DNA of 64,000 nt from assembly GCA_025361565.1 (NCBI GenBank), contig JANYKN010000116.1, positions 186,001 through 250,000 of the forward strand, given 5' to 3'. How positions within the stretch are numbered: position 1 is the stretch's first letter; every line of letters begins with the position of its first letter. The position numbers and the translations under genes are program-made. Below are positions 14,471 through 42,284 of this stretch, in pieces. The notes below the pieces were generated by a model. That model searched no databases and was not told the DNA's origin. It saw only the letters and a list, made by a program, of their open reading frames with translations. This DNA is from Bacteroidota bacterium. Lineage in GTDB: Bacteria; Bacteroidota; Bacteroidia; Bacteroidales; NBLH01.

Positions 14471-15727
14471 TTATAATTTTATCATCTTTTTAGCTGTTCT
14501 TATGCCATTTACTTCAAGTGTGTAATAATAAATGCCTTTATTAGCTGCTATTTCAGCTGGAATCTGATAATTACCAATGGATTGGTTTTTGTCAACCAGC
14601 ACTTTAATTAATTGACCATTACTGTTCCAAATTTCTAATTTTACTTTTGCATTTTCTTTTAAAGAATACTCAATCAATGTATTGTTGGTGAATGGATTGG
14701 GATAATTTTTTAATTCAGTATTTTCAACCTTTCCATTTTCTTGAACTCCTGTCGGATTTGGATTATTCCATCCGGCAAGGGTGGCCCAAAGGGACCAAGC
14801 AGCACAACCTTTCAGGACACAATGTAAGCGTGCATTATCTTTTGTTTCACCTTCAAAAACACCTTGGCTGTGCTCACAACTCTGGCAAATATTATCCGCT
14901 GATAATTTGGTTAATTCAGAATTAGAATTAGCTGTCATCCAATCTATTGCCCAATTTCTACACTCAGGATAAACAGAGCCTCCTGGTGAGGAAGAAGTGT
15001 AGGCCATATCATCATTAAGCCTTCTTATATTTGTATAAGTTTCATTATTCGTACCTGTTCCATCTCCAAAATAATTTCCATTGGGATCATAACATTCAAT
15101 ATCGTTAAAGTCAAACAAAATTCTGTTATAGTCGATGCAATGTTGACGGATGGAATCATTTTTAGCAAAAACCAAAACATTCCGCTCGGCAGTTCTTTGG
15201 CCACATGCAGTTTGGAACACAAAAGTAACTGGAACAGCTCGATTTTTGCTGCCACCCGGTCCATATTCCCCAATAAGCATCTCCATATCATCGACATATT
15301 GCTGTGCACTACATTTATAAAAATCACTGCTCCATGCCCACATTATAACATTGATTTGTGCATTAGCAGCATTATCAAGATATGACCTCGTAATTGCAAC
15401 CCAAGTGGCATTTTCAATATCAAGGCTATTCCATGGTTCTGCCGAAGTTTGGGTTGACAAAAACAAAGCACCTCCAGAGCCTGTTTTATTAAAATCATAT
15501 TTGGTTGAATTCGCTAATGAAAATCTTCGAATAGCTGCCATTCCACCAATGTCAACCTGGCTTCCATGCGATCTCCTAAAATATCTAATCTTCAGGTTTG
15601 CTTTTGCCTTAGTTAAATATACATCAGGGATCTGACTCAAATCCGTGTTTCTATGATCGATGACAATTCCTTGCGAAAATATAAACTGACTGAAAATCAG
15701 GAATAAAAAAAGAAAATAGGTTTTCAT
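14471..15727 (-). CDS. Secreted SGNH-like protein of unknown function with T9SS sorting domain (paralogue 1)
   Basis: The 418-residue protein has a signal peptide (to about residue 19, FIFSQ). Its core (about 20-325) is shared with the next two upstream genes: DHRNTDLSQIP, then YFRRSHGSQVDIGGM (about 49-63), VIMWAWSS, FVFQTACGQR, ILFDFNDIECYDPNG, ICQSCEHSQG and DNARLHCVLKG. The last about 85 residues are a type A sorting domain (NYPNPFTNNTLIEYSL, ending KMIKL). The family has no function known to me. The S-H-G-S, DFNDIE and D..RLH blocks line up with blocks of the SGNH-like lipoprotein at 19664, so a divergent GDSL/SGNH hydrolase is a reasonable inference. It ends at the terminator at 14412-14447. 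Confidence 0.7.
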   Translation of the reverse strand: MKTYFLFLFLIFSQFIFSQGIVIDHRNTDLSQIPDVYLTKAKANLKIRYFRRSHGSQVDIGGMAAIRRFSLANSTKYDFNKTGSGGALFLSTQTSAEPWNSLDIENATWVAITRSYLDNAANAQINVIMWAWSSDFYKCSAQQYVDDMEMLIGEYGPGGSKNRAVPVTFVFQTACGQRTAERNVLVFAKNDSIRQHCIDYNRILFDFNDIECYDPNGNYFGDGTGTNNETYTNIRRLNDDMAYTSSSPGGSVYPECRNWAIDWMTANSNSELTKLSADNICQSCEHSQGVFEGETKDNARLHCVLKGCAAWSLWATLAGWNNPNPTGVQENGKVENTELKNYPNPFTNNTLIEYSLKENAKVKLEIWNSNGQLIKVLVDKNQSIGNYQIPAEIAANKGIYYYTLEVNGIRTAKKMIKL

Positions 15728-15790
15728 AATCGTAAATTTAAGTTTTAAATATAGGTAAGATTATTTTAATCGTTCTAATTACTATTTATA

Positions 15791-16750
15791 TTATTTGTTT
15801 ACAGAAGCATCGTTCCAGCCTGCAAGTTTGGCCCACATCCACCAAGCTGCCTGGCCTTTTAACACACAGTGGATACGTGAATTATCTTTGGTTTCGCCTT
15901 CGTGCACACCCATTGAATGCTCACATTTAACACAAATATCATCACTTGATAATTTAGCCAATTCTGTATCTGGATTTTTCTTTATCCAATCAATTCCCCA
16001 GTTTGCACGACCACCTTTTGTTTTATACGATAAATCGTCATTTAGTAAAAATTTACCGGTATAAGCTCCATCTGCACTTCCGTCACCAAAGTATTCTCCA
16101 TCAGGGTTGTAACATTCAATATCATTAAAATCAAATAATACCCTGTTGTTTTTTTTGCAATGTTCTCTTATTTTTTGATTATCCAGATAGAGTATTTTGT
16201 TTCGATCATCAGATGATTGTGAGCATCCAGTTTGAAAGATAAATAAAACAGGTGTTTTCCGTTTGCCGGACTTAACTTTACTTCCACCTTGACCATATTC
16301 ACCAATAAGCGTTTCCATGTCTTTCAAATATTGATCTGCATCTGCTTTATAGAGGTAACTGCTCCAAGCCCACATTACAACATTTATTTGGGCATTGGCT
16401 GGATTATCAAGAAAACCCCTGGTAATTGCGACCCATTTATCATTTTCAAAATCAAGACTTTGCCAAGTAGTGGATAAAAAAAGATCGCCATTGGCTCCTG
16501 TAGGGTTATAACCATATAACTTTTCGTAATTTTTTGAATATCTTTTTAATGCAGCCATTCCTCCAAAATCGATATGGCTGCCATGTGAGCGCCTGAAATA
16601 CTGAATTTTTAATTTCTTTTTCGCTTCATTGATGTATTGAGCCGGAATTTTTGAAAGATCAGTATTCCTGTGATCAATAATGAAGCCTCTTTGTGCACTC
16701 AAAATAGTTGTCATACAAAATATCGCTAAAAGCATTAACGTTTTCATCAT
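15791..16750 (-). CDS. Secreted SGNH-like protein of unknown function (paralogue 2, core only)
   Basis: This 319-residue paralogue consists of a signal peptide (to about residue 20) and the core domain alone; there is no sorting domain. Conserved blocks are RRSHGS (53-58), MWAWS (126-130), DFNDIECY (207-214), CVKCEHS (273-279) and DNSRIH (289-294). Two ATGs are in tandem at 16750 and 16747; either gives an equivalent leader. Without a T9SS domain it probably stays periplasmic, unlike its neighbours. It lies 63 bp upstream of paralogue 1 on the same strand and 37 bp downstream of paralogue 3, so the three likely form one transcript. Confidence 0.68.
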   Translation of the reverse strand: MMKTLMLLAIFCMTTILSAQRGFIIDHRNTDLSKIPAQYINEAKKKLKIQYFRRSHGSHIDFGGMAALKRYSKNYEKLYGYNPTGANGDLFLSTTWQSLDFENDKWVAITRGFLDNPANAQINVVMWAWSSYLYKADADQYLKDMETLIGEYGQGGSKVKSGKRKTPVLFIFQTGCSQSSDDRNKILYLDNQKIREHCKKNNRVLFDFNDIECYNPDGEYFGDGSADGAYTGKFLLNDDLSYKTKGGRANWGIDWIKKNPDTELAKLSSDDICVKCEHSMGVHEGETKDNSRIHCVLKGQAAWWMWAKLAGWNDASVNK

Positions 16751-16787
16751 AGCATCAATAATTTAAAAATAAAATTAATTCATTTTC

Positions 16788-19316
16788 CTATTCAATAATC
16801 AGTGATTTGACGAACCGGTTTTTTGTATCTTTTAAAATAATCAAATAATTGCCTTTTTTATAACTGCTAAAATCAAGATTTATATGGTTTTCTGATATGG
16901 AATTATATTTCTGGCTAAATACTACTTTCCCATTTAAATCGAGCAATTCTATTATCAAAATATTGAATTTTTGGTCTGAAAATTCAATAGTGAAATTTCC
17001 TTTACCAGGGTTTGGGAATAATTTTATGTTAATTTCTTTTTCAGGATTTATAATGATATTCTCATTTTCTGCAAGTATAGTTAAAGCATTTGTTAAAAGA
17101 TCCTTATTACCCACAAGTGCATTTCTACCTACCAAAACACGAAAATTGCTGCTATCTGCATCAAAATCAGATCCATCAAATAAAACTGTCAGGTTAACCA
17201 ACGTATCATTAATAGATTGAATATTGCCAAAACTTAAGCCCAATGGTGCATTTTCAGGAGCAAAATTTTCCAATATTATTCCATTTGGGTTAAATGTTTC
17301 GTTCTTTAATATTACTTTAAGGATTGCACCATTTAGTTTTGATTCTATTAAACTTCCAGTAGTATCAAGCATTGCACTTGGACTACTTTCATCAATACCT
17401 CTAATTATTAACTCATTACTAGTCAAATTATGATAACCATTTAGTTCAATTTCATTTATTGTGATAGTAAAATGCGGATAATCGATATCAAAGTCAGTAC
17501 CATCAAAATCTAATGCAATTTGGATTTGTTGGTTGCTAATATAAGTGACTGATGCAGCTGAAAATCCTGGGGGTGAATTGTTTAGTAGAATATTGTTCAG
17601 ACTTATTTGATTATCAATAAAAGCATCTTGAGTAAGCTGGACCGTTAAAACTGCATTAGCCAAATTATTCTCATTCAGTGAAGTATTTGGAGTAATCGTC
17701 ACACTTTCATTGTATGCCGCTATATTTAGCGAATTACTGGTAAGATTATCGCCACCGCTCAATTCAGCAGCCAGAATGGTAATTTTAAATAATGGATAAT
17801 TTACATCAAAGTCGGTTCCGTTATAATTCAAAGCTATTTGAACGCGCTGGTTGTTTATATATGTATAACTAGCAACTGACAAACCAAGAGGCGCATTGAC
17901 TAATTGGATATTGCTCAGGTTTATTTGGTTATCAATAAAATATTCGTCAGTAAGTTGAACAGTTAACACTGCATTAGTCAAATTGAATTCAGTCATAGCA
18001 TTATTTGAGGTAATGGCTACGCTCTCTTTAAGACCATGTATATTCAGGGCATTGCTTATCATGTCGGCACCACCAGAAAGTTCAGATCCTAAAATAGTAA
18101 TCTTAAATTGCGAATAATCAATGTCGAAGTCTGTTCCATCATATGCAAGAGTTAAAGTAACATTTTGTGCACCATTATAATTAACCGACTTAATAGTAGT
18201 TCCTGGAGGAGCTCCATTTAAATGAAAATTAGATAAAGAAAGCGTAGCATCTGCAAACGTTTCTCCAACTAATGAAATATTGATGGTTGCGTTATTTAAA
18301 GATGATTCTACCAAAGCCGAACTGATAGTCAATGATTTTTGCTGCCAACCGGCAAGCCGTGCAAATAACCACCATGCTGCCCTGCCTTTAAGTACACAGT
18401 GCAAACGGGAATTGTCTTTAATTTCTCCTTCAGCAGTACCTTCGGAATGTGCACAAGATGTACAAATAGTATCTGCTGCCAATTTAGTTAATTCAGAAGT
18501 TGGATTTGCATTCATCCAATCAATTCCCCAATTGCGGCATCCATCCCAAACAGAACCACTTGGTGAAGAAGAAATGTAAGCTAAATCATCATTTAGTCTA
18601 CGCACATCAGTATAATTACCATTCGCATCACCATCACCAAAATAAACACCATTGGGATTATAACATTCAATGTCGTTAAAGTCATATAATATTCTGTTAT
18701 GACTAATACAATGATTTCGAATGCTGTCATTTTTTGCAAACACCAAATCATTTCGACCAACTGTTCTTTGCCCACAAGCTGTCTGAAAAACAAAAGTAAC
18801 GGGCACAGTTCTTTTACCCGACAGAATTTTAGTGCCATTTGGGCCATATTCCCCAATAAGCATTTCCATGTCATTAACATATTGTTCGACACTGCATTGA
18901 AAAAAATTGCTGCTCCATGCCCACATCACTACATTAATTTGTGCATTAACCGGATTATCCAAATAATCACGGGTTATTTTCACCCAGGTTGCATTTTCAA
19001 CATCCAGGCTTACCCATACGGTCGAATTTTTAGGTACTGATAAAAGCAAATTACCATTAGCACCTAAAGTATCATAGCTATATTTTGAATAATAATCAGT
19101 TGAAAACCTTCTGAGTGCAGCCATTCCACCCATGTCAACCTGGCTACCATGTGAGCGCCTGAAGTATCGTATTTTTAAGTTTTGTTTTGCAGCAGCAATC
19201 CATGTATCCGGAATTTGTGAAATATCTGTGCTGGTGTGGTCGACAATAAATCCATCCTGAGACTTCATTGTTGCTGTGATGAGCAGGAAAATGATAATTT
19301 TGAAAATAAATTTCAT
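16788..19316 (-). CDS. Secreted SGNH-like protein with four beta-repeats and T9SS sorting domain (paralogue 3)
   Basis: I start at the ATG at 19316 (842 residues), where a signal peptide MKFIFKIIIFLLITATMKSQ begins; the frame extends 11 codons further up without a leader-like sequence. The core (about 20-335) shares all blocks with paralogues 1 and 2 (YFRRSHGSQVDMGGM, VVMWAWSS, DFNDIECYNPNGVYFGDG, CTSCAHSEG, DNSRLHCVLKG). Then come four repeats of roughly 88-95 residues, each ending with a DGTDFDIDY-type strand and an ELSGG..L(T/I)SN.L.I segment. The last about 85 residues are a T9SS type A sorting domain (LFPNPGKGNFTIEF, ending SLIIE). The repeats probably form stacked beta-sandwiches for adhesion or spacing. 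It is the first gene of the three-paralogue series. Confidence 0.72.
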   Translation of the reverse strand: MKFIFKIIIFLLITATMKSQDGFIVDHTSTDISQIPDTWIAAAKQNLKIRYFRRSHGSQVDMGGMAALRRFSTDYYSKYSYDTLGANGNLLLSVPKNSTVWVSLDVENATWVKITRDYLDNPVNAQINVVMWAWSSNFFQCSVEQYVNDMEMLIGEYGPNGTKILSGKRTVPVTFVFQTACGQRTVGRNDLVFAKNDSIRNHCISHNRILYDFNDIECYNPNGVYFGDGDANGNYTDVRRLNDDLAYISSSPSGSVWDGCRNWGIDWMNANPTSELTKLAADTICTSCAHSEGTAEGEIKDNSRLHCVLKGRAAWWLFARLAGWQQKSLTISSALVESSLNNATINISLVGETFADATLSLSNFHLNGAPPGTTIKSVNYNGAQNVTLTLAYDGTDFDIDYSQFKITILGSELSGGADMISNALNIHGLKESVAITSNNAMTEFNLTNAVLTVQLTDEYFIDNQINLSNIQLVNAPLGLSVASYTYINNQRVQIALNYNGTDFDVNYPLFKITILAAELSGGDNLTSNSLNIAAYNESVTITPNTSLNENNLANAVLTVQLTQDAFIDNQISLNNILLNNSPPGFSAASVTYISNQQIQIALDFDGTDFDIDYPHFTITINEIELNGYHNLTSNELIIRGIDESSPSAMLDTTGSLIESKLNGAILKVILKNETFNPNGIILENFAPENAPLGLSFGNIQSINDTLVNLTVLFDGSDFDADSSNFRVLVGRNALVGNKDLLTNALTILAENENIIINPEKEINIKLFPNPGKGNFTIEFSDQKFNILIIELLDLNGKVVFSQKYNSISENHINLDFSSYKKGNYLIILKDTKNRFVKSLIIE

Positions 19317-19663
19317 TTGTTTAGTAATTTGGTTTAGTTTTAAAAACAATGGACTAACTTTAATTAAAAAAGGTTGTTTGTTTTTTTGTCAAATTTAAGT
19401 CAAGTTAATTTAACACAAGTCATTTTTCTTGTCATGAAATCTTGCAATTCGTCTGCTTTTTCAAAAAAATCATGGAAGTAGTCAAATATCTAATCTCTTC
19501 TACCAAAAATGCTTTCTATAAGCAACTCAATAAATATATATTTGTTAAAATGAATTTCATTCTAATTATTGAAAGAATTAGAAATTAGGAATTATTAATA
19601 ATACGTTTAAATTTATCTCTAACAATTGGCTTATATAAATGTAAAACAACAAAAATATAAGTA
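19317..19663. other. Intergenic region, 347 bp, divergent promoters
   Basis: It separates the minus-strand SGNH-like series from the plus-strand lipoprotein series and must hold both promoters. An 8-bp inverted repeat TTCTAATT (19560-19567) with AATTAGAA (19576-19583) and a short run of degenerate heptads (AATTAGA, AATTAGG, AATTATT, AATAATA; 19576-19603) are present. No ORF is visible. Confidence 0.45.
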
Positions 19664-28387: not shown

Positions 28388-29671
28388 TTAATTAAAGACG
28401 TTATAAACTTTTCCTTCGCGCCAGCTTTCAACGGCTTTTGACCAGAATTGCCTGAAATCAATATTTCTTTCCAATAAAAAATCATTATCAGTATATTGAT
28501 TTGGCACCCGATTAAAAACAAATTGCAAATATCTGGAGTTTAGTTTATCAGAATAAATCCAGGTTTCTTTTTCTGGAGTTTTTGTAACTGATTTTGGTGG
28601 TCCGAAAATAAGATATATCATTCCTCTATCAGTTCGCCAACCTTCTGTAAAAGAAGTAAAGTAAGTATTGGCATAAAATGCCCGATTGTAATAAATCCTT
28701 ATCAACTCCCTCGATCTGTTAATATCTTTGGCAGCTCCTAACCAAAATTTATCGACCGATAATTTTTTATTAGAACTTTTTAATATTTCATTGAATTCGA
28801 TTGTACTGGTCAAATATTCCAAAGGAAATACAAGACTTTCGCTTGTTTTGAGATATGGAAAATCAACCCCCGCATTTAATAAACCTAAGCCCTCAACGGA
28901 ATTTGTATCAACCTGAATAAAATAAAAACCATTTTTTTGTTCTCTGAACTGAAACTCATTTTGTCCACTAACTGAAAATATACTATCAGTAGTTAAAGCA
29001 ACTGGTGGTCGAATCATTGATGAATATGGCGGGTATGGCAATGGTTCTTGTCTACTACAATATCGTATATATAAACTATCAACAGATTTTTTATGGTGAA
29101 TTGCAAATACCTGATCATTTCTAAAATAATTTTTAAAATATGGCAGGTTGGTGCCTTTTTGCTCAATCAGGAAATTTTGTCGTGCGCCAAGACCTTCTTT
29201 ATTAACAAGAATATACTCCTCAACACTTGCTTGTCTTAAAACATCGGTAGTAATAATGTGTAGATAATATTTCGATAAACCTGTTTCTTTAATATTAAGA
29301 TAAGTAATGGCATTGTTTTGATCTTTTCTTTTCTTTATTTCGTATAATGCACTAGCGCTGTCAATATAATTTGATAGATTATCGAAAGGATAAATTTGAT
29401 ATTCAATTTTAACTTTTCCCTGTGAACTTCTGTTTGGGCCAATAGGAGCAAACATCAATTCATCAAGGTAAATTTTTGTGTATAAACGACTATTTTGTGA
29501 TTCAGTATGATAAACAAAATATTCTGGATGAATACGATAAATAAACGGGTTATATATTGCACTTGAAACCTGTTTTTTATCATTCGATGTAGTAGTTGTC
29601 AAAGGAAAACATGATGACAAAAGAAACAATATTGCTGTAGTATAAAATAAATATAAAATATGCTTTTTCAC
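28388..29671 (-). CDS. GWxTD-domain lipoprotein
   Basis: The 427-residue protein has a lipoprotein signal with Cys at about residue 21 (LFLLSSCFP). The GWxTD domain covers the C-terminal third: GWRTDRGMIYLIFGPPKS, then KETWIYSDK and LQFVFNRV. The middle contains Ig-like strands seen in members of this Bacteroidota family, whose role is unknown. It is likely anchored in the outer or inner membrane facing the periplasm. The start codon is GTG at 29671 (GTG AAA AAG CAT), supported by the immediate basic-hydrophobic leader. rlmB follows by 35 bp on the same strand. Confidence 0.88.
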   Translation of the reverse strand: MKKHILYLFYTTAILFLLSSCFPLTTTTSNDKKQVSSAIYNPFIYRIHPEYFVYHTESQNSRLYTKIYLDELMFAPIGPNRSSQGKVKIEYQIYPFDNLSNYIDSASALYEIKKRKDQNNAITYLNIKETGLSKYYLHIITTDVLRQASVEEYILVNKEGLGARQNFLIEQKGTNLPYFKNYFRNDQVFAIHHKKSVDSLYIRYCSRQEPLPYPPYSSMIRPPVALTTDSIFSVSGQNEFQFREQKNGFYFIQVDTNSVEGLGLLNAGVDFPYLKTSESLVFPLEYLTSTIEFNEILKSSNKKLSVDKFWLGAAKDINRSRELIRIYYNRAFYANTYFTSFTEGWRTDRGMIYLIFGPPKSVTKTPEKETWIYSDKLNSRYLQFVFNRVPNQYTDNDFLLERNIDFRQFWSKAVESWREGKVYNVFN

Positions 29672-30176: not shown

Positions 30177-30205
30177 ATAAAAAAAGCCACTCAAAAGAGT
30201 GGCTT
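30177..30205 (-). terminator. Rho-independent terminator of a minus-strand small transcript
   Basis: AAGCCACTC (30184-30192) pairs perfectly with GAGTGGCTT (30197-30205) around a 4-nt loop; on the minus strand it is followed by TTTTTAT, giving seven consecutive T after GGC. No annotated minus-strand gene lies within 340 bp upstream of it, so it must end a short transcript. Confidence 0.85.
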
Positions 30206-30301
30206 CCAACCTATTACCTTTAATTATTAATCCGAATCTTAGCCAAACAATCCAATATTTTTCTGAAAATGTTTAGTTAAAAAGGATAACTTCATTAACC
30301 G
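30184..30301 (-). ncRNA. Candidate sigma-54-dependent small RNA (about 120 nt)
   Basis: A sigma-54-like promoter (30327-30312, minus strand) predicts transcription start near 30301, and the intrinsic terminator ends it near 30180, giving about 120 nt. The body has no long ORF. GTTAA/TTAAC segments near its 5' end could form a weak stem. It contains a short ORF (see 30241-30295), so it may instead be a micropeptide mRNA. The boundaries are predictions from promoter spacing and the hairpin. Confidence 0.45.
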
Positions 30302-30304
30302 CAT
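30239..30304 (-). CDS. Possible micropeptide, 18-21 codons
   Basis: From ATG at 30304 the frame reads MRLMKLSFLTKHFQKNIGLFG and stops at 30239-30241. The inner ATG at 30295 (MKLSFLTKHF...) is preferred, because the predicted transcription start is near 30301, downstream of the first ATG. The peptide would be small, basic and moderately hydrophobic. The leader of only about 6 nt argues for weak or leaderless translation. It is divergent from an ABC exporter operon and could be its cargo or just chance; there is no homology evidence. Confidence 0.2.
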   Translation of the reverse strand: MRLMKLSFLTKHFQKNIGLFG

Positions 30305-30394: not shown

Positions 30395-30430
30395 TGTCCG
30401 AAAATGGGATTATGTGTTCATTTTCGGGCA
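30395..30430. promoter_or_regulatory. Palindromic candidate activator-binding site
   Basis: TGTCCGAAAATG (30395-30406) and CATTTTCGGGCA (30419-30430) are reverse complements with one mismatch, separated by 12 bp. Its centre (30412.5) is 93 bp from the centre of each flanking sigma-54-like promoter, the usual range for an NtrC-type enhancer-binding protein. No such regulator gene is in the window. Confidence 0.6.
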
Positions 30431-30497: not shown

Positions 30498-30513
30498 TGG
30501 CACGGAAACTGTA
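30498..30513 (+). promoter_or_regulatory. Sigma-54-like promoter of the ABC efflux operon
   Basis: TGGCACG-GAAA-CTGTA has a perfect -24 element and a degenerate -12 element (CTGT instead of TTGC), with GG-N10-G spacing kept. The predicted start near 30523 leaves a leader of about 26 nt before the ATPase ATG at 30549. Confidence 0.55.
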
Positions 30514-30548
30514 AATTCAATTTCAACCATTATCTTATAATTATTTTC

Positions 30549-31265
30549 ATGATCCGAATAGAAAATTTGCACAAGAGTTATACAACAGGCGTAAATAAAC
30601 TGCATGTAATTAAAGGTATTGACTTAAGGATTGAGGCCGGAGAGCTTGTTTCAATCATGGGCTCTTCAGGTTCTGGAAAATCGACCTTGTTAAATATAGT
30701 TGGCATTCTTGACAATTATGATCAGGGAAGTTATCACCTTGACAATATGCTGATTACTGAAATGTCTGAAAAAAAAGCCGCCCTTTTACGAAATAAATAC
30801 ATCGGTTTTGTTTTTCAATCGTTTAATCTAATTTCATTTAAAAATGCAATGGAAAATGTTGCACTGCCACTATATTATCAAAATGTGAGCAGAAAAAAAA
30901 GGAATATTGCAGCCATGGAATTTTTAGATAGAATGGGACTAAAGGATTGGGCCAATCATTTGCCAAATGAGCTTTCGGGAGGACAAAAACAACGAATTGC
31001 CATTGCTCGGTCAATGATCACAAAACCAAAGATAATTCTTGCCGATGAACCAACAGGTGCACTTGATACTGCAACTTCATACGATGTAATGAAACTTTTC
31101 AAAGAAATCAATGATTTAGGAATTACTGTAATTATAGTAACCCACGAAAAAGACATCTCTGAAATGACCAACAAGATCATCCGCTTAAAAGACGGATTAA
31201 TTGAGTCGGTAAATGGAACAAAGATTTTAGTTGAAGATCATGTAAATGAAATGAGCAATGTTTGA
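30549..31265 (+). CDS. ABC transporter ATPase, MacB/LolD type
   Basis: The 238-residue ATPase has Walker A GSSGSGKST (38-46), Q-loop in FVFQSFNL (88-95), signature LSGGQKQR (142-149), Walker B IILADEPTGALD (162-173) and the switch His in VIIVTHEKD. It drives the two following permeases, whose genes start with an 8-bp overlap (31258). It belongs to the group that powers mechanotransmission-type export from the periplasm or lipoprotein release. It is the first gene of a four-gene operon under a sigma-54-like promoter. It might also serve the ATPase-less permease at 9756, which is speculation. Confidence 0.95.
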   Translation: MIRIENLHKSYTTGVNKLHVIKGIDLRIEAGELVSIMGSSGSGKSTLLNIVGILDNYDQGSYHLDNMLITEMSEKKAALLRNKYIGFVFQSFNLISFKNAMENVALPLYYQNVSRKKRNIAAMEFLDRMGLKDWANHLPNELSGGQKQRIAIARSMITKPKIILADEPTGALDTATSYDVMKLFKEINDLGITVIIVTHEKDISEMTNKIIRLKDGLIESVNGTKILVEDHVNEMSNV

Positions 31266-32487
31266 TCAAGATAAATGGCAGGAAATTTTAAGTACCATTA
31301 AGAAAAACAAGCTTCGGTCTTTTTTAACCGGATTTAGTGTTGCATGGGGTATATTTATGCTTATTATATTGCTAGGTTCAGGAAAAGGACTTCAAAATGG
31401 TGTTGAAACTGAATTTAAACAAGACGCTATTAATAGCATTTGGATTTATCCTGGCCAAACGAGTATACCTTATAAAGGTTATTCGCTGGGCAGACAAATT
31501 AAAATGACAAATAATGATTATGATGAGGTAAACAAAAATGTAAAGGATCTGGAATACATTTCTGCCAGGTTTAATGCAAGTTGGTCAGGTAGTATTTCGT
31601 ATAAAAACGAATATGGCAGTTTTGATATCATTAGTTGTAATCCTGGCTGTCAACAAATTGAAAATGCAAGTATAAAAGAGGGTAGATTCATTAATCAGCC
31701 CGATATTGAAAAATTTAGAAAAGTTGCAATTATAGGATTAAAAGTAGTAGATGCATTATTTAAAGATAGCGTAAATCCTATTGGAAAGTATTTAAAGGTG
31801 AACGGAATACCATTTGAGGTAGTTGGGGTATTTTCAGATCCAAACGAGCGCGACATGAATCGAATATACGTACCCGTTTCAACAGCACAAAAAGTATTTA
31901 ACGGAGGCAATACCATTCATAACCTTTCATTTACGACTACTGGAACTCCAGAGGAAAGTAAAAAATTGGTTGAGTATTTACGAAACGATTTTGCAAAACG
32001 GCATAATTTTGATCCAACTGATATGCAAGCCCTTTATATAAACAATACCCTAGAAAGATACGAACAGTTTCAAAACATGTTTAAAGGCATCCGGATTTTT
32101 GTATGGATTATTGGAATCGGAACTATTATAGCAGGAATCGTTGGTGTTAGCAACATTATGATGATTGTTGTTAAAGAAAGAACCAAAGAAATTGGAATTA
32201 GAAAAGCAATTGGAGCTTCGCCGGGATCTATTATTTCTTTGATTTTGCTTGAAAGTGTATTGATTACCAGCTTTGCAGGTTATGTTGGACTTGTTTTAGG
32301 AGTAGGGCTGCTTCAGCTTCTTTCAAAAGCTATGGAGAACGTTCCTTTTATCAAAGATCCACAAGCAGATTTTTCAGTAGCAATTTACGCAACACTATTA
32401 TTGATTATATCCGGTGCTATTGCAGGATTTGTGCCAGCAAACAGAGCGGCTAGAATAAAACCAATTATTGCTTTGCGCGATGAATAA
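31258..32487 (+). CDS. MacB/FtsX-type ABC permease (first of two)
   Basis: The 409-residue protein starts MFDQDKWQEILSTIKKNKLR and has one membrane helix at about 25-45, a periplasmic MacB_PCD domain, and three C-terminal membrane helices (IFVWIIGIGTIIAGIVGVSN, LILLESVLITSFAGYVGLVL, LLLIISGAIAGFVPA). The coupling helix region is KERTKEIGIRKAIGASP. The gene overlaps the ATPase stop by 8 bp, implying translational coupling. It is a close paralogue of the next gene, so the exporter may be a heterodimer. Substrate unknown. Confidence 0.92.
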   Translation: MFDQDKWQEILSTIKKNKLRSFLTGFSVAWGIFMLIILLGSGKGLQNGVETEFKQDAINSIWIYPGQTSIPYKGYSLGRQIKMTNNDYDEVNKNVKDLEYISARFNASWSGSISYKNEYGSFDIISCNPGCQQIENASIKEGRFINQPDIEKFRKVAIIGLKVVDALFKDSVNPIGKYLKVNGIPFEVVGVFSDPNERDMNRIYVPVSTAQKVFNGGNTIHNLSFTTTGTPEESKKLVEYLRNDFAKRHNFDPTDMQALYINNTLERYEQFQNMFKGIRIFVWIIGIGTIIAGIVGVSNIMMIVVKERTKEIGIRKAIGASPGSIISLILLESVLITSFAGYVGLVLGVGLLQLLSKAMENVPFIKDPQADFSVAIYATLLLIISGAIAGFVPANRAARIKPIIALRDE

Positions 32488-32561: not shown

Positions 32562-33827
32562 ATGTTCGATCTGGATAGATGGCAGGAAATTTACACAGCA
32601 TTAAAGAGCAATAAGCTTAGAACCTTCCTCACTGCCTTTGGAGTTTTCTGGGGTATTTTTATGCTAATGGTTATGTTAGGTTCCGGTAAAGGACTCGAAA
32701 ATTCTGTATTTGAAGATATGGGCGATTTTGCATCAAACAGTGCATTTATTTGGGCTCAAAAAACCAGTATGCCTTATGAAGGATATCCGCGTGGTAGAAA
32801 TTATAATTTCACCAATGACGACATGAAGGCTCTTAAAGATAATATTGATGAAATCGATTTACTCTCACCTAGGCTTCAAGGCTGGGCTGCAGGCGATGGA
32901 CAGAATAATGTTACTAGAGGCCTCAAAACTGGAGCATTTAACATTCAGGGGGATTATCCTCAAATAAATTTGATTGATCCGAACAAAATGTTGAAAGGAA
33001 GGTTTGTTAATGACAAAGATATTGAAGAAAGCAGAAAAGTGTGTGTGATAGGCCCTCGCGTTCTTGAAGTTTTGTTCAATAAGGAAGAAGAGCCAATTGG
33101 TCAATATATTCGAATAAAAGGAGTTTATTTTCAGGTGGTAGGAGTTTTTAAACCTAAAAATAAGATTAATATTGGTGGTGACAAGGAGCAAACTATTTTT
33201 CTACCTTTTACATCACTTCAGAAAGCTTATAATTTTGGAGATGAAGTGCATTATTTTTCTGTTACCGCTAAAGAGAATATTCCAGTTTCTATTGTAGATA
33301 AAAAATGTAGAGACTTAATACGTGAAAGACACCATATAAACCCTGCTGATGATCAAGCAGTCGGCGGCTTTAACCTCGAAGAAGAATTTAATAAAATGAG
33401 AGGGCTTTTTAAAGGAATAGCTGCTCTTATGTGGATTGTAGGCGTAGGAACGCTTCTGGCTGGTGTAATTGGAGTAAGTAACATCATGCTTATTATTATT
33501 AAAGAAAGAACAAAGGAGATTGGCATTCAAAGGGCTTTAGGAGCAACACCGGCAAAAATTATTAGCCAAATTATTATGGAATCTGTGTTTCTAACTGCAT
33601 TTGCAGGATACATAGGTATGGTTTTTGGAGTCTTTTTAATCGAAGCCATCAATTATTTGCTCGAAACGTCAGGTGCAAATACCGATATGTTTAAACATCC
33701 CGGAGTGGATTTTAATATAGCTATTTCAGCTTTAATTATACTTGTTGTTTCAGGCATTTTTGCAGGAATGATACCTGCGCAAAGGGCAATAAGCATTAAA
33801 CCGATCGATGCACTTCGCGATGAGTAA
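32562..33827 (+). CDS. MacB/FtsX-type ABC permease (second of two)
   Basis: The 421-residue protein parallels the preceding one: MFDLDRWQEIYTALKSNKLR, an N-terminal membrane helix, the periplasmic domain, and a C-terminal three-helix bundle with KERTKEIGIQRALGATP and the tail RAISIKPIDALRDE. Identity with the first permease is obvious along the membrane parts and low in the periplasmic part, which is the pattern expected of a duplicated heterodimer. The 74-bp gap from the first permease is filled with heptanucleotide repeats. It is followed after 78 bp by the fusion protein. Confidence 0.92.
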   Translation: MFDLDRWQEIYTALKSNKLRTFLTAFGVFWGIFMLMVMLGSGKGLENSVFEDMGDFASNSAFIWAQKTSMPYEGYPRGRNYNFTNDDMKALKDNIDEIDLLSPRLQGWAAGDGQNNVTRGLKTGAFNIQGDYPQINLIDPNKMLKGRFVNDKDIEESRKVCVIGPRVLEVLFNKEEEPIGQYIRIKGVYFQVVGVFKPKNKINIGGDKEQTIFLPFTSLQKAYNFGDEVHYFSVTAKENIPVSIVDKKCRDLIRERHHINPADDQAVGGFNLEEEFNKMRGLFKGIAALMWIVGVGTLLAGVIGVSNIMLIIIKERTKEIGIQRALGATPAKIISQIIMESVFLTAFAGYIGMVFGVFLIEAINYLLETSGANTDMFKHPGVDFNIAISALIILVVSGIFAGMIPAQRAISIKPIDALRDE

Positions 33828-33905: not shown

Positions 33906-35018
33906 ATGAAGCGTGTACTCAGAATAACCCTAATTGTAATTGTTTTGGTAATTTTTATATCAACCATTGTTTTTCTTTACAAGAAATCTCAGGAGAAACC
34001 AAAAATTTATAAAACAGAAAAAGCATTTATTACAAATATTATAAAAAAGACTGTGGCTACAGGCTCTGTTGTTCCACGTAAAGAAATTGAAATTAAGCCT
34101 CAGATATCTGGTATTATTGATGAAATTTATGTTGAAGCAGGTAAAATAGTCAGAAAAGGCGATCTACTAGCTAAGGTTATTATCATTCCTGATATGTTAA
34201 GTATTAACAATGCTGAATCGAGACTCAAACAAGCAAAACTCAAATTGCAAGATGTTGAAATAGTATACAACAGACAAAAAGAATTATTTCAAAAAAGTGT
34301 AATTGCTAAAGCAGAATTTCAAAAAAACGAAATCGAATATAGCAGTGCAAAAGAGGAAGTTGAGGCAGCAGAAAATAATCTTGAATTGCTTAAAGAAGGT
34401 GTTTTAAAGAAATCGGGCAAAGCAACAAACACATTAATCAGATCCACAATCGAAGGTATGGTATTGAGTGTTCCAGTTGAAGTCGGAAATTCAGTAATAG
34501 AAAGCAATGCTTTTAATGCCGGCACTACCATTGCAATTGTTGCAGATATGAACGATATTATTTTTAAAGGAAAAGTAGATGAAACCGAAGTTGGAAAAAT
34601 AAGGCAAGGAATGGATTTGATGTTGCGCATTGGAGCAATTGAAACGGATACTTTTTATGCTACTCTTCAATATATCGCACCAAAAGGTGTTGAAGAAAAT
34701 GGAGCGATTCAATTTGAAATAAAAGCTGATGTTAAGTTGAAACCTTCGCAATTTATTCGTGCCGGATACAGTGCAAATGCAGATATTGTACTCGATAGAA
34801 AAGATAAAGTATTGGCAATTAAGGAAAGCTTGATTACTTTCAAAGACGATTCAGCCTTTGTTGAAGTGGAGACCTCTCCTCAGGTTTTCAAAAAGATAAA
34901 TATTAAAACAGGCCTCTCAGATGGAATTAATATTCAGATTCTTACTGGTTTAGATACTACTAAATTAATAAAAGCAGGGCTAAAAGAAGATGAACCTGTT
35001 AAATTGGCCAATAAATAA
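33906..35018 (+). CDS. HlyD/RND-type membrane fusion protein
   Basis: The 370-residue protein has an N-terminal anchor (LRITLIVIVLVIFISTIVFLY), a lipoyl-type half motif (GSVVPRKEIEIKPQISGII), a coiled coil at about 98-165 (RLKQAKLKLQDVEIVYNRQ through EEVEAAENNLELLKEGV), and the beta-barrel domain (GKVDETEVGKIRQGMDLML). It should connect the two permeases to an outer-membrane duct, but no TolC gene is in this operon. The TolC at 8231 is one candidate partner in trans. It is the last gene of the sigma-54-like operon, followed by a terminator at 35090-35128. Confidence 0.92.
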   Translation: MKRVLRITLIVIVLVIFISTIVFLYKKSQEKPKIYKTEKAFITNIIKKTVATGSVVPRKEIEIKPQISGIIDEIYVEAGKIVRKGDLLAKVIIIPDMLSINNAESRLKQAKLKLQDVEIVYNRQKELFQKSVIAKAEFQKNEIEYSSAKEEVEAAENNLELLKEGVLKKSGKATNTLIRSTIEGMVLSVPVEVGNSVIESNAFNAGTTIAIVADMNDIIFKGKVDETEVGKIRQGMDLMLRIGAIETDTFYATLQYIAPKGVEENGAIQFEIKADVKLKPSQFIRAGYSANADIVLDRKDKVLAIKESLITFKDDSAFVEVETSPQVFKKINIKTGLSDGINIQILTGLDTTKLIKAGLKEDEPVKLANK

Positions 35019-35089: not shown

Positions 35090-35128
35090 AATGTCCAGAA
35101 GTAGAAAATACTACTTTTGGACATTTTT
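35090..35128 (+). terminator. Rho-independent terminator of ABC efflux operon
   Basis: A 15-bp stem (35090-35104 with 35111-35125) containing one G-U pair, 6-nt loop AAAATA, then a T-tract. It lies 72 bp after the fusion-protein stop and confirms the operon end. Confidence 0.88.
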
Positions 35129-35194: not shown

Positions 35195-37621
35195 ATGATT
35201 AAAAGCATTTTAATTTTATTTTTCCTCCTTTTATCCGGAGCACTTATTTCGCAAGATTCAATAAAAACAGCACAAGCAGTGCGAATTACCATTTCACCTA
35301 TAATAGATGGAGTTTTGGACGATGATTGTTGGAAAGGAGTTGAACCTGCTTCAGATTTCATACAACTAAGACCAAATAACGGCAAAAAAGCAAGCTATCC
35401 TTCTAAAGTAAAAATAGTTTATGATAATCAAGCTATTTATATTGGAGCAATGTTATACGATCCTGCACCGGATAGTATTATGAAACAGTATACTCCTCGT
35501 GACGAAATAAATGTTTCGGATTATTTTGGAATATATATTGATCCATATAATAATGGATTAAATGCTTTTGGATTTTTTGTAACCCCGGTGAATGTTCAGG
35601 TAGATATGGCCGCATCAAGCGATGGCAATGAAGATGGAAATTGGAATGCTGTTTGGAAAAGCTCAGTTAAAATTACGGATAGTGGATGGGTTGTAGAATA
35701 TAAAATCCCATATTCGGCATTGCGATTTCCAAAAACAGATGTTCAGGTCTGGGGTTTAAATTTTTTCAGGAATATTGCACGCTACCGCGAAAATAGCAGT
35801 TGGAGTTTTATTGATAATGAAAAACAAGGCTGGGTTCGTCAACAAGGAGTGCTAAAAGGAATAAGCAATGTTGTACCACCGCTCCGTTTATCTGTTACGC
35901 CTTACATATCAACATATCTTGAAAAAAATCCAAATAATGAGAACTGGACTAATTTTTATAGGGCAGGAATGGATTTAAAATATGGCATAAATGAAAGCTA
36001 TACGCTTGATATGATGCTTATTCCTGATTTTGGCCAAGTCCAGTCTGATGATGTGGTATTGAATCTTAGCCCGTTTGAAATTTTTTATGACGAAAAAAGG
36101 CAATTCTTTATTGAAGGCAATGAATTATTTAATCGAGCAAACATTTTTTATAGCCGACGAATTGGAAACACACCCACGAAATTCTATAATGTTGAAGAAC
36201 AGCTTTCTGCAAATGAAGTAATAGAAAAAAATCCGTCCGCATCGCAGCTCATCAATGCCACTAAAATATCAGGGAGAAACACAAATGGTCTGGGAGTTGG
36301 CTTTCTTAATGCAATGACCATAAATACTTATGCTAAAATCAAGGATACTTTAAATGGAGGTGAACGAGAATTTATGACTGAACCTTTTACCAATTATAAT
36401 GTACTTGTTTTTGATCAATCATTAAAAAACAGTTCTTATGCTAGTATAATCAATACAAATTATTCACGCTTTGACGATAAATATTATGCTAATGTTACAG
36501 GAACAGAATTTCTATTGAACAATAACAGCAAAACATATTCCATATTTGGATCAGGTGCATTAAGTCAGATTTTCAACAAAAATTCAAAAGCTGATTTAGG
36601 TTTTTATTCCCATTTAAGCTTTTCAAAAACAAGCGGTCAGTTTCGTTTTTCTTTAAACAATCGGATTGAAAGTGACACCTATAACCCCAATGATTTAGGA
36701 TATATTATGAATCCAAATGAAATTTCTTCAAGCATCAACCTATCGTATAATTTCTACAAACCATTTGGACGTTTTTTAAATTTTTATAACAATCTAACCT
36801 TTTGGCATGCATCACTTTATAGGCCATATAAATATACTGGTTTTGAAATTTATTTAAATTCCAATGCAACTTTCAGGAACCATTTTACTGTTGGGTATTT
36901 TATTGGTATTGTTCCTATCGAATCACATGATTATTTTGAAGCAAGAGTGCCAGGACGCTTATTTATTAGGCCCGCATCAATTCATTTTGAACCATGGATT
37001 TCGACAGATTTCAGAAAGGAACTCGCATTGGAAATACAGCTTGGAATTTCGCCAACAAATAGTATCAGCCAAAGTAAGCTTAATATTAGTATAGCTCCTA
37101 GATTTAAGCCAAATGACAGGTTACTTTTTGTCCTACAAATGAATTTATCAGATAATAAAAACGATCTTGGATATGTAGATAATACTATGAATGAGGACAC
37201 TATATATTTTGGAAGAAGGAATGTTATTGAGTTGGAAAACACAATTGAGGCACGATATATTTTCACTGAAAATGCTTCATTAAGTTTCAATTTAAGACAT
37301 TATTGGTCAACTGTAAAATATGATAAATTTTACACATTAAATTTAGATGGGACACTAGATAATGATGATAAATACAATGGGAATTCGGATATAAATTTCA
37401 ATTATTTCACAATAGATGTAGCCTATCGATGGATTTTTGCGCCTGGAAGTGAACTTTCATTGGTTTGGAAAAACTCAATTAACACAGATTCAAATGAAAT
37501 TGAAAAACATTATTTTAAAAATTTAACGAATACATTGGGTTTACCACAAACAAATAGTTTCTCGTTACGTGTTTTGTATTATTTAGATTCTCAATATTTT
37601 AAGAAAAAACAGCTTAAGTAA
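35195..37621 (+). CDS. DUF5916 outer-membrane protein with CBM9-like domain (paralogue 1)
   Basis: The 808-residue protein has a signal peptide (to about residue 19, ALISQ). Residues about 25-220 are a CBM9-like beta-sandwich (ITISPIIDGVLDDDCWKGVEPASDFIQL, DNQAIYIGAMLYD, VVEYKIPYSALRFP). The remainder matches DUF5916, which in this phylum looks like a large outer-membrane beta barrel (FGQVQSDDVVLNLSPFEIFYDEKRQFFIEG as the family hallmark, and many alternating aromatic strands to the C-terminus). Function is unknown; carbohydrate binding or transport is suspected. It is followed by a C69 dipeptidase and then a second DUF5916 gene on the same strand, each separated by gaps. Confidence 0.9.
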   Translation: MIKSILILFFLLLSGALISQDSIKTAQAVRITISPIIDGVLDDDCWKGVEPASDFIQLRPNNGKKASYPSKVKIVYDNQAIYIGAMLYDPAPDSIMKQYTPRDEINVSDYFGIYIDPYNNGLNAFGFFVTPVNVQVDMAASSDGNEDGNWNAVWKSSVKITDSGWVVEYKIPYSALRFPKTDVQVWGLNFFRNIARYRENSSWSFIDNEKQGWVRQQGVLKGISNVVPPLRLSVTPYISTYLEKNPNNENWTNFYRAGMDLKYGINESYTLDMMLIPDFGQVQSDDVVLNLSPFEIFYDEKRQFFIEGNELFNRANIFYSRRIGNTPTKFYNVEEQLSANEVIEKNPSASQLINATKISGRNTNGLGVGFLNAMTINTYAKIKDTLNGGEREFMTEPFTNYNVLVFDQSLKNSSYASIINTNYSRFDDKYYANVTGTEFLLNNNSKTYSIFGSGALSQIFNKNSKADLGFYSHLSFSKTSGQFRFSLNNRIESDTYNPNDLGYIMNPNEISSSINLSYNFYKPFGRFLNFYNNLTFWHASLYRPYKYTGFEIYLNSNATFRNHFTVGYFIGIVPIESHDYFEARVPGRLFIRPASIHFEPWISTDFRKELALEIQLGISPTNSISQSKLNISIAPRFKPNDRLLFVLQMNLSDNKNDLGYVDNTMNEDTIYFGRRNVIELENTIEARYIFTENASLSFNLRHYWSTVKYDKFYTLNLDGTLDNDDKYNGNSDINFNYFTIDVAYRWIFAPGSELSLVWKNSINTDSNEIEKHYFKNLTNTLGLPQTNSFSLRVLYYLDSQYFKKKQLK

Positions 37622-39839: not shown

Positions 39840-42284
39840 TTGAGAGTTATAAGGTACTTCCATATCATTATTTTATTGATACTGATTTTCAGTATGGATA
39901 TGCTATATTCGCAGGCACCAAAAAATCTTTATGTAGCAAAACGTGTTTTTGAATCTCCTGATATTGATGGTTTTATTGGCGAAGATATTTGGAATATGGC
40001 TGATATAGATAGCTTAAGTGTTCAATACGCTCCTTATAATGGTAAAAAGCCTTCAAAAAAAACTGAATTCCGAATCTTATATGATGACAAGGCGCTTTAT
40101 ATAGCAGCTTATTTGTATGATAATCCAGATTCAATCCGCTCAGGGCTGGGTAGGCGGGATGACGCTTTTGACATGAATGCAGATCAGTTTATTGTTGATA
40201 TAGGACCATATGATGATGGAATTAACTCCTTTTCTTTCATGGTTTCAAGCTCCGGAGTACAATCCGATTTTAAAAATTACTATGACACAAGAGATTTAAG
40301 TTGGGACGCAGTCTGGAAAAGCAGAACCAGAATACTTGACAGAGGATGGGTAGTTGAAATAAGAATTCCTTATTCCGCCATCCGTTTTTCAAAAAATATT
40401 TTTCAGGTTTGGAGTTTAAATATATTTCGTCTAATCAAACGAAAAGAAGAAACTTGCTCATGGAACTTTGTTGATCGTGAAATTTCTGGAGTAATAAATC
40501 AATCTGGTCAACTTATTGGAATTGAAAACATTAAAGCTCCACTTAGATTATCTCTATCACCCTGGGCCAGCACCAATACGGAAAGAGGACCAGCATTGAA
40601 TAAATGGCAACAGAATTACAATGCTGGTATTGATCTTAAATATGGTATTAACCAGGCTTTTACTCTTGATGCCTCTTTATTTCCCGATTTTAGCCAAGTA
40701 GAATATGATGATGTAGTTTTAAATTTGAGTCCTATCGAAACAAAATATGATGAACATAGGCAATTTTTTAATGATGGGGCAGAAATGTTTTCAAAAGCCA
40801 ATATTTTTTATTCAAGAAGAATAGCCTTGATTCCAGAAAAATATTTAAGCATAGCTGGTGGTTTGCAAAAAAATGAAATTATAATAGAAAATCCAGCGCA
40901 ACTTGATATAATAAATGCCATAAAACTTACCGGACGGACCAGTCAAAAGTTAGGCTTGGGATTTGTAAACACTATGAGTAAGCCAGGATTTGCAACATTT
41001 AAAGATACTTTAACAGGATTACAAAGACAAGTTGAAACACAATCTTTTACTAATTACAATGTATTTGCATTGGATAAATCGCTTCAAAACAATTCATTTA
41101 TTAGCATTATCAATACCAATTTGTCCAGAGACAATATGAAATATGTCTCAAATGTAACTGGCACAGAATTCAAATTTTCCAATGATGGAAACTCATATGC
41201 AATTAGCGGAATTGGTGCACTTAGTCAGTTATTTGATACTATTAATGGTATTGAACTTGGTTTTAAATCTAACTTTTATATTGATAAGACAAGTGGTAAA
41301 TTTCTTTTTCGCTTGGGCAATGAAATAATAAGCGAAAATTATAATCAAAACGACATGGGTTATTTACCCTGGGTAAATGAAATTTCCAGTTTTTCAAAAT
41401 TTGAATACAATATATATCAACCTTTTTGGGAAATTTTGAGCTGGAAAAATTATATTGAAGCAAGATATACAAGTTTATATAAACCACAATCATTTGTTGA
41501 TTTTAAAACAAGCATCAATACTGAGATATTATTTTCGAACCAGTTTAATTTAATCATTTATGGATTTTGGAGGCCTAAGGGAAATCATGATTATTACGAA
41601 GCAAGAGAACCCGGACAAGTTTTTATTAAGGCTCCCTCCTATTCTGGTTTTGTTAAAATAAATACAGATCCTCGCAAAATGCTATCTGCAAGTGTTTTTT
41701 ATCGATATTGGGGAAATACAGCCAAAATAGGAATGGTTTGGAATACCATTGGAGTCTCTCCATATTTGCGAATTCAAAGCCGTTTTCAGGTTGGACTAGA
41801 TTTATTTTATGACAAGTTCAATAATTCAATAGGACATGTTTATACAATTAATGACAGTATATATATGGGGAAGAGGGATTTACAATCTTATTCCAACACA
41901 CTTACAATCATATATTCATTTACAAATAAAGCATGGCTTAATCTTAAAGTCAGGCATTACTGGTCAACAGCGGTTCACAATAAATATTACTTATTAAATA
42001 ATGAGGGGAAATTAGAATCATCAGATAAAATTCCTTATAATGCGGATATTGATTTTCAGATGCTTAATCTCGATTTCGCAATCAAATGGGAATTTGCCCC
42101 CGGAAGTCAACTTTCAATTGGCTGGAAAAACTTGTTTTCCAAAAAGGGTATTCCATCAACCAACGACTACTTTTCCACAATAGATAATATGTTAGAAAGC
42201 CCCAATTATAATAGCTTTTCCATTCGTCTCCTCTATTATTTCGATTTCCTTTACTTAAAAAAGAATGAAAGCACCAATTATTAA
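39840..42284 (+). CDS. DUF5916 outer-membrane protein with CBM9-like domain (paralogue 2)
   Basis: The 814-residue protein starts at a TTG codon (39840): there is an in-frame TAA at 39828 and no ATG before the hydrophobic leader RVIRYFHIIILLILIFSMDM, whose cleavage site is near LYSQ. Residues about 30-225 are the CBM9-like domain (VFESPDIDGFIGEDIWNMA, VVEIRIPYSAIRFS); the rest is DUF5916 with the hallmark FSQVEYDDVVLNLSPIETKYDEHRQFF. It is clearly paralogous to the gene at 35195, with which it flanks the C69 dipeptidase. Probably an outer-membrane barrel of unknown substrate. Confidence 0.9.
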   Translation: MRVIRYFHIIILLILIFSMDMLYSQAPKNLYVAKRVFESPDIDGFIGEDIWNMADIDSLSVQYAPYNGKKPSKKTEFRILYDDKALYIAAYLYDNPDSIRSGLGRRDDAFDMNADQFIVDIGPYDDGINSFSFMVSSSGVQSDFKNYYDTRDLSWDAVWKSRTRILDRGWVVEIRIPYSAIRFSKNIFQVWSLNIFRLIKRKEETCSWNFVDREISGVINQSGQLIGIENIKAPLRLSLSPWASTNTERGPALNKWQQNYNAGIDLKYGINQAFTLDASLFPDFSQVEYDDVVLNLSPIETKYDEHRQFFNDGAEMFSKANIFYSRRIALIPEKYLSIAGGLQKNEIIIENPAQLDIINAIKLTGRTSQKLGLGFVNTMSKPGFATFKDTLTGLQRQVETQSFTNYNVFALDKSLQNNSFISIINTNLSRDNMKYVSNVTGTEFKFSNDGNSYAISGIGALSQLFDTINGIELGFKSNFYIDKTSGKFLFRLGNEIISENYNQNDMGYLPWVNEISSFSKFEYNIYQPFWEILSWKNYIEARYTSLYKPQSFVDFKTSINTEILFSNQFNLIIYGFWRPKGNHDYYEAREPGQVFIKAPSYSGFVKINTDPRKMLSASVFYRYWGNTAKIGMVWNTIGVSPYLRIQSRFQVGLDLFYDKFNNSIGHVYTINDSIYMGKRDLQSYSNTLTIIYSFTNKAWLNLKVRHYWSTAVHNKYYLLNNEGKLESSDKIPYNADIDFQMLNLDFAIKWEFAPGSQLSIGWKNLFSKKGIPSTNDYFSTIDNMLESPNYNSFSIRLLYYFDFLYLKKNESTNY

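Follow-up and report, generated by a model that had tools for sequence, protein, structure and literature searches.

What transcript does an intrinsic terminator end when no gene on its strand precedes it? Such a terminator lies within the 64,000-nucleotide stretch of DNA analyzed here (the window; contig G000:C149 of a 6.76-Mb Bacteroidales-type assembly in 199 contigs). The original prediction had proposed that it ends an RNA of about 120 nt made from a sigma-54-like promoter, with either a micropeptide or an antisense regulator of efflux as the product. The locus was compared across seven genomes of the genus, including the window genome (G000), and across 393 genomes of the order.

A terminated unit on the minus strand

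On the minus strand, the hairpin AAGCCACTC-TTTT-GAGTGGCTT (30205-30184) has a 9-bp stem and a TTTT loop and adjoins a run of seven T's (30185-30179), two of which fall within the stem. The earlier description of a perfect 9-bp hairpin with a T7 tail was therefore exact. A hairpin of this kind (9-bp stem, at least five G/C pairs, and a T6 run) occurs once across the 64 kb and was found in 0 of 2,000 dinucleotide shuffles of the 877-bp intergenic region. A generic terminator scan did not pick it up, probably because the scan extends the stem into the T tail. The next gene upstream is a plus-strand ABC ATPase gene at 30549, in agreement with the claim that no minus-strand gene leads into the terminator.

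A sigma-54-like sequence, TGGCACA-TTAC-TTGA, is present on the minus strand at 30327-30313, within the -24/-12 element assigned to 30327-30312. Its -24 GG is present, and its -12 dinucleotide reads GA; the canonical sigma-54 -12 dinucleotide is GC. The pattern TGGCAYRN4TTG matches only this site in the 64-kb window and appeared in 22 of 2,000 shuffles of the intergenic region. The predicted RNA start, 30301, is 12 nt beyond the element, which is the correct spacing for a sigma-54/bEBP-dependent small RNA (sRNA). With the start set by this spacing and the end set by the terminator, the predicted RNA (30301-30179, minus strand) is about 123 nt long and runs from 5' CGGUUAAUGAAG to a U tail. It is a discrete noncoding unit with an intrinsic terminator, as such an sRNA should be. 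No Rfam match was obtained in the window, and a tRNA search was likewise empty. A promoter for the primary sigma factor (TAnnTTTG) was considered and rejected, since one imperfect match is found in the window genome and none is common to four species.

Of the six other genomes of the genus, five encode an ortholog of the ABC ATPase, with 81 to 85% identity. In G001 and G003, a minus-strand unit comprising the promoter, the start spacing, GGTTAAT, AGGTAATAGGTT, and the terminator stands at the same position beside the orthologous MacB-type exporter. The sequences invariant among these two species and the window genome are TGGCA..A....TTG, GGTTAAT, AGGTAATAGGTT, and the GCCACTC/GRGTGGC stem with its trailing T's. 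In each of the three species, GGTTAAT begins at the base that follows the predicted +1, and its distance from the -12 element is identical among them. When the window genome is compared with G003, the 5' block that contains this motif (30281-30301, minus strand) is identical at 20 of 21 positions and the 3' block plus terminator at 50 of 58, with corresponding values of 27 of 44 for the middle of the sRNA and 298 of 504 for the DNA past the terminator. The 3' block, AGGTAATAGGTT (30208-30219, minus strand), is a candidate pairing region; in the predicted folds of the three RNAs, the segment from AGG to the terminator stem is mostly unpaired. All nine stem pairs are retained in the three species (27 of 27 pair cells), with one two-sided change. 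The covariation signal is weak, since three sequences contribute to it. The promoter reaches one species further: TGGCAYA-N4-TTG is present in the window genome, G001, G003, and G004, with GA or GT as the -12 dinucleotide. The G004 contig stops exactly at the predicted +1 and that of G005 stops short of the sRNA region, so both assemblies are incomplete there.

The sRNA was not found in G002, although that genome has the exporter and its promoter. A covariance model search of the 393 order genomes recovered it only in the window genome, G001, and G003, and no divergent pair of sigma-54 element and terminator was seen at the named exporter-ortholog loci outside the genus. A 37-bit match in G246, from the same 393 genomes, lies across the end of a coding gene; it was set aside as a terminator resemblance. 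A repeat family or multicopy RNA was also rejected, since AGGTAATAGGTT with the terminator occupies one locus per genome in three genomes and a search of the genus turned up no others. Confinement to one genus and absence from G002 are what would be expected of a dispensable by-product, that is, a short, terminated, nonfunctional RNA from a divergent sigma-54 promoter that happens to lie beside the exporter enhancer. We regard this explanation as quite unlikely, given that the terminator and two blocks inside the unit are far better conserved than the flanking DNA in three species and that the promoter is retained at mirror-symmetric spacing in four.

The unit also contains an ATG-started open reading frame (ORF) of 18 codons, MKLSFLTKHFQKNIGLFG, the basis of the earlier proposal of a micropeptide; such a peptide could be secreted or regulatory, as cargo of the adjoining ABC system. 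In G003, the frame stops after 11 codons (MKLSFFSGHIP-stop), and in G001, it has no ATG. ATG-started ORFs of at least 18 codons are comparably common in the intergenic region (12 observed) and in its shuffles (9.0). The micropeptide was dropped because the ORF is unconserved and its frequency is at chance level, which makes this reading hardly credible. Of the two features originally put forward, the hairpin is thus kept in both G001 and G003, whereas the ORF is not.

The unit might instead be the leader of the GWxTD/rlmB-like genes (28388-29671 onward), with the hairpin serving as a regulated terminator. The GWxTD gene (28388-29671) does lie on the same strand as the sRNA and starts about 510 bp past the hairpin. 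In G001, however, a plus-strand gene with its own terminator sits between the sRNA and the GWxTD gene; therefore, the hairpin would end a stand-alone transcript and the unit is independent. There is neither a conserved alternative antiterminator structure nor special conservation of the DNA past the terminator, and an attenuator is accordingly very improbable. The originally predicted promoter and RNA of about 120 nt are well supported by conservation in two sister species, by the exact promoter-start spacing, and by an enhancer shared with the exporter. The locus is very probably a real, conserved gene for a sigma-54-type sRNA, together with its sigma-54 promoter.

A predicted enhancer shared with the exporter operon

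The divergent neighbor is an ABC exporter, as had been recognized. Its plus-strand operon encodes an ATPase (30549-31265; ABC_tran, MacB/LolD-like, below equivalog cut-offs), two MacB_PCD/FtsX permeases (31258-32487 and 32562-33827), and a periplasmic adaptor of the RND_mfp/HlyD type (33906-35018). The presence of these components in one operon identifies it as a MacB-type exporter. Its proteins score below the NCBIfam cut-offs for the MacAB macrolide exporter equivalog (permeases, 106 to 115 bits versus 966; adaptor, 76 versus 342). The operon has a sigma-54-like -24/-12 element of its own, TGGCACGGAAACTGT (30498-30512, plus strand; predicted +1 at 30524), which is found in the window genome, G001, G002, G003, G004, and many Bacteroidales orthologs.

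Between the two sigma-54 promoters lies a tandem palindrome of the form TGTYCGN4YGRRCA with a spacing of 20 to 21 bp. In the window, the two predicted upstream activator sites are TGTCCGAAAATGGGAT (30395-30410) and, 20 bp from it, TGTTCATTTTCGGGCA (30415-30430), and the same arrangement is seen at exporter orthologs across Bacteroidales. The midpoint of the palindrome pair lies at the same distance from either predicted start in the four species assembled there: 111.5/111.5 bp in the window genome, 111/111 bp in G001, 109.5/109.5 bp in G003, and 110/110 bp in G004. The sites therefore stand at enhancer distance, about 110 bp, from both starts, as would suit a sigma-54/bEBP-dependent sRNA. In many Bacteroidales, exporter orthologs are likewise preceded by the palindrome and a plus-strand sigma-54 element. 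Control of the exporter by sigma-54 thus appears to be widespread, in contrast to the genus-restricted divergent sRNA. This recurrence suggests an RpoN exporter regulon at the scale of the phylum.

Among the Bacteroidales exporter orthologs at L120-L199, the DNA upstream of the ATPase gene often contains one or two TGTYCGN4YGRRCA palindromes, about 120 to 165 bp from the start of that gene, and, at about 40 to 90 bp, a TGGCAY-type sigma-54 element. Some palindrome matches elsewhere are terminators and were rejected as activator sites (G001:C4:53195-53230). Likewise, hairpins after the adaptor gene (window 35091-35128; L097:11196-11231), which read TGTCC...GGACA plus a T run, are terminators, although pattern searches pick them up as activator palindromes. 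Just past the exporter operon, two DUF5916/CBM9-like outer-membrane proteins (35195-37621 and 39840-42284; the Pfam check covers the first) flank a secreted dipeptidase-like gene. Elsewhere in the window, at 14471-19349, the minus strand carries a tandem array of three genes for paralogous secreted proteins (VDHRNTDLSQIP... type); apparent C-terminal sorting domains are seen in the first and the third.

In each of the seven genomes of the genus, rpoN and several genes for NtrC-type activators are present, the factors on which a sigma-54/bEBP-dependent sRNA would rely. In one orthologous group of activators, the C35 type (G000:C35 in the window genome; also in G001, G004, G005, and G006), a response regulator gene is followed by a histidine kinase gene. 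The palindrome is present upstream of these genes with at most one mismatch in four of the five genomes, and degenerate palindrome-like DNA is found in G005. Sigma-54-like TTGGCAYGATTTTT-type sequences also precede the C35-type activator genes, and the TGTYCGN4YGRRCA palindrome is absent at the other activator groups. The C35-type response regulator/kinase pair is thus the likely activator of both promoters, an assignment that is circumstantial because the search for C35-type genes was negative in the assemblies of G002 and G003. The G000:C35 activator (L096:4205-5590) has receiver, AAA+, and Fis-type HTH domains, with the histidine kinase next to it. Its motif reads GAYTDA; sigma-54 activators normally carry GAFTGA. 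Activators of the C296 type were rejected as the regulator, since TGTYCG-type sites were found near neither C296-type gene and the palindrome at G002:C296 differs (TGTTTCAN3TGAAACA). At G002:C296 (L098:1861-1901), a paralogous activator gene is divergent from another ABC exporter, and two copies of TGTTTCAN3TGAAACA, 24 bp apart, lie between them.

Comparison with known sigma-54-controlled RNAs

Proteobacteria have sigma-54-controlled regulatory RNAs, such as Qrr, GlmY, and CrcZ. In the open literature, of which our coverage is incomplete, we found none described for Bacteroidota. To our knowledge, sigma-54 regulons and sRNA circuits have been little mapped in this phylum, for which the present element offers a defined (predicted) transcript, promoter, enhancer, and probable activator.

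Qrr1-4 of Vibrio have sigma-54 promoters under the phosphorylated NtrC-family regulator LuxO and act by base-pairing (PMC4878744). The unit described here is similar to them in being a short terminated RNA with a sigma-54 promoter and a putative NtrC-family response regulator (PMC4878744). It differs from them in that it has no Rfam match, is present in a single copy per genome, and has its predicted enhancer in common with a divergent exporter operon; in addition, with 306 bits on the LuxO model (cut-off, 800), the C35 activator does not qualify as a LuxO ortholog. GlmY of enterobacteria has a sigma-54 promoter under the two-component NtrC-type system QseF/GlrR (PMC7073468). The predicted control here is alike in both respects, but there is no sequence match, and the neighborhood and the phylum are different. 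CrcZ/CrcY of Pseudomonadaceae are directly activated by the NtrC-type regulator CbrB (sigma-54) through subdivided upstream sites (PMC8871633). The present locus likewise combines a predicted regulatory RNA with subdivided upstream sites for a putative NtrC-type regulator, yet it has no sequence match to CrcZ, and CrcZ does not share an enhancer with a divergently transcribed exporter. Neither a covariance-model match nor a sequence match to GlmY or CrcZ was found in the window. Because there is no Rfam match and the activator falls under the LuxO cut-off, the RNA is not a member of the Qrr, GlmY, or CrcZ family; its control appears to resemble theirs by analogy.

Within Bacteroidota, Rfp18 is a flavobacterial, genus-restricted sRNA with predicted base-pairing targets (PMC9723704). 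The sRNA described here shares its genus restriction and the prediction of base-pairing targets and differs in its sigma-54 promoter, for which the accessible part of that report describes no equivalent (PMC9723704). For COG0577 permeases, of the ABC antimicrobial-peptide type, an enrichment among the predicted sigma-54 targets of Bacteroidia has been reported, an independent inference of their sigma-54 control (PMC12316311). The exporter sigma-54 promoter agrees with that study, in which small RNAs are never mentioned (0 occurrences); the divergent sRNA is additional here. The element ties an sRNA to a widespread exporter operon with recurrent sigma-54 control in Bacteroidales, and the pump is probably produced along with a small RNA regulator, via one control site.

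Proposed mechanism and candidate partners

RNAs built in this way usually act on mRNAs by base-pairing or on a protein by titration. On balance, and with moderate confidence, we lean toward a stand-alone, RpoN/bEBP-controlled base-pairing sRNA of about 123 nt that is co-induced with the exporter. RNA polymerase carrying RpoN (sigma-54) would transcribe the minus strand from 30301 to 30179. An NtrC-type response regulator acting as a dimer, most likely that of the autoregulated response regulator/histidine kinase pair represented by G000:C35, would bind the palindrome pair at 30395-30430 and activate the sRNA promoter. The same pair would activate the divergent MacB-type exporter operon, so that the sRNA and the exporter would be induced together. 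The RNA would end at the intrinsic terminator and probably base-pairs via its conserved, largely unpaired 5' GGUUAAU and 3' AGGUAAUAGGUU.

Targets were sought as pattern matches in the genomes and by duplex energies within the 64-kb window. The duplex between the sRNA 3' block and the exporter leader with its start codon (30521-30557, plus strand) has an energy of -28.3 kcal/mol, the best of 8,515 66-nt windows (both strands, 64 kb), which was reached in 0 of 500 shuffles. The predicted partners are AGGUAAUAGGUU in the sRNA and CAACCAUUAUCUU in the exporter leader, and they pair in the window genome only. The equivalent duplexes of G001 and G003 do not exceed those of shuffled sequences, and the exporter leader is therefore a tentative target. 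On the plus strand, the complementarity takes the form of an imperfect direct repeat (30204-30228 and 30521-30545) and may thus stem from local duplication. We offer the exporter leader tentatively, as a species-specific hypothesis and not as a conserved function. The proposal of an antisense regulator of efflux accordingly finds complementarity in this genome but lacks it in two sister species, which leaves a general function unsupported. In this species, the 3' segment could bind the first exporter gene's mRNA at its leader and start codon, which would damp exporter synthesis after induction and form an incoherent feed-forward loop. A single enhancer midway between two divergent sigma-54 promoters, one for the exporter and one for an sRNA that pairs with the exporter leader, would hard-wire such a circuit in Bacteroidota, a picture that we consider rather doubtful.

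GlmY sequesters RapZ, and CrcZ sequesters Hfq/Crc. By analogy, the sigma-54-controlled RNA might titrate a protein through its repeated G-rich GGUUAAU/GGUAAUAGGUU motifs, without pairing with mRNA. Repeated short, single-stranded, G-rich motifs are present in all three species, and no base-pairing target is conserved between species, both of which would fit titration. Against it, the strong exporter-leader complementarity in the window genome would have to be chance. We judge titration unlikely and retain base-pairing as the preferred mode of action.

The target prediction originally called for yielded the strong match to the exporter leader in the window genome but no target common to the species. 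Two further leaders, containing AACCTATTACCT and ACCTATTACCTCATTAACC, were rejected as conserved targets, since no target is supported across species. In G003, a gene for an outer-membrane beta-barrel-like protein is preceded, at about 135 nt, by ACCTATTACCTCATTAACC (L215, G003:C434:2926-2935), a sequence with complementarity to each of the two conserved sRNA blocks, 3' and 5'. This G003 gene is without a close counterpart in the window genome, and its best match in G001 is 30% identical. In the window genome, all 12 nt of AACCTATTACCT (G000:C166; L200:4319-4330) are complementary to the sRNA 3' block. They lie 12 to 23 nt before the ATG of a gene that encodes a predicted secreted protein of 861 amino acids.
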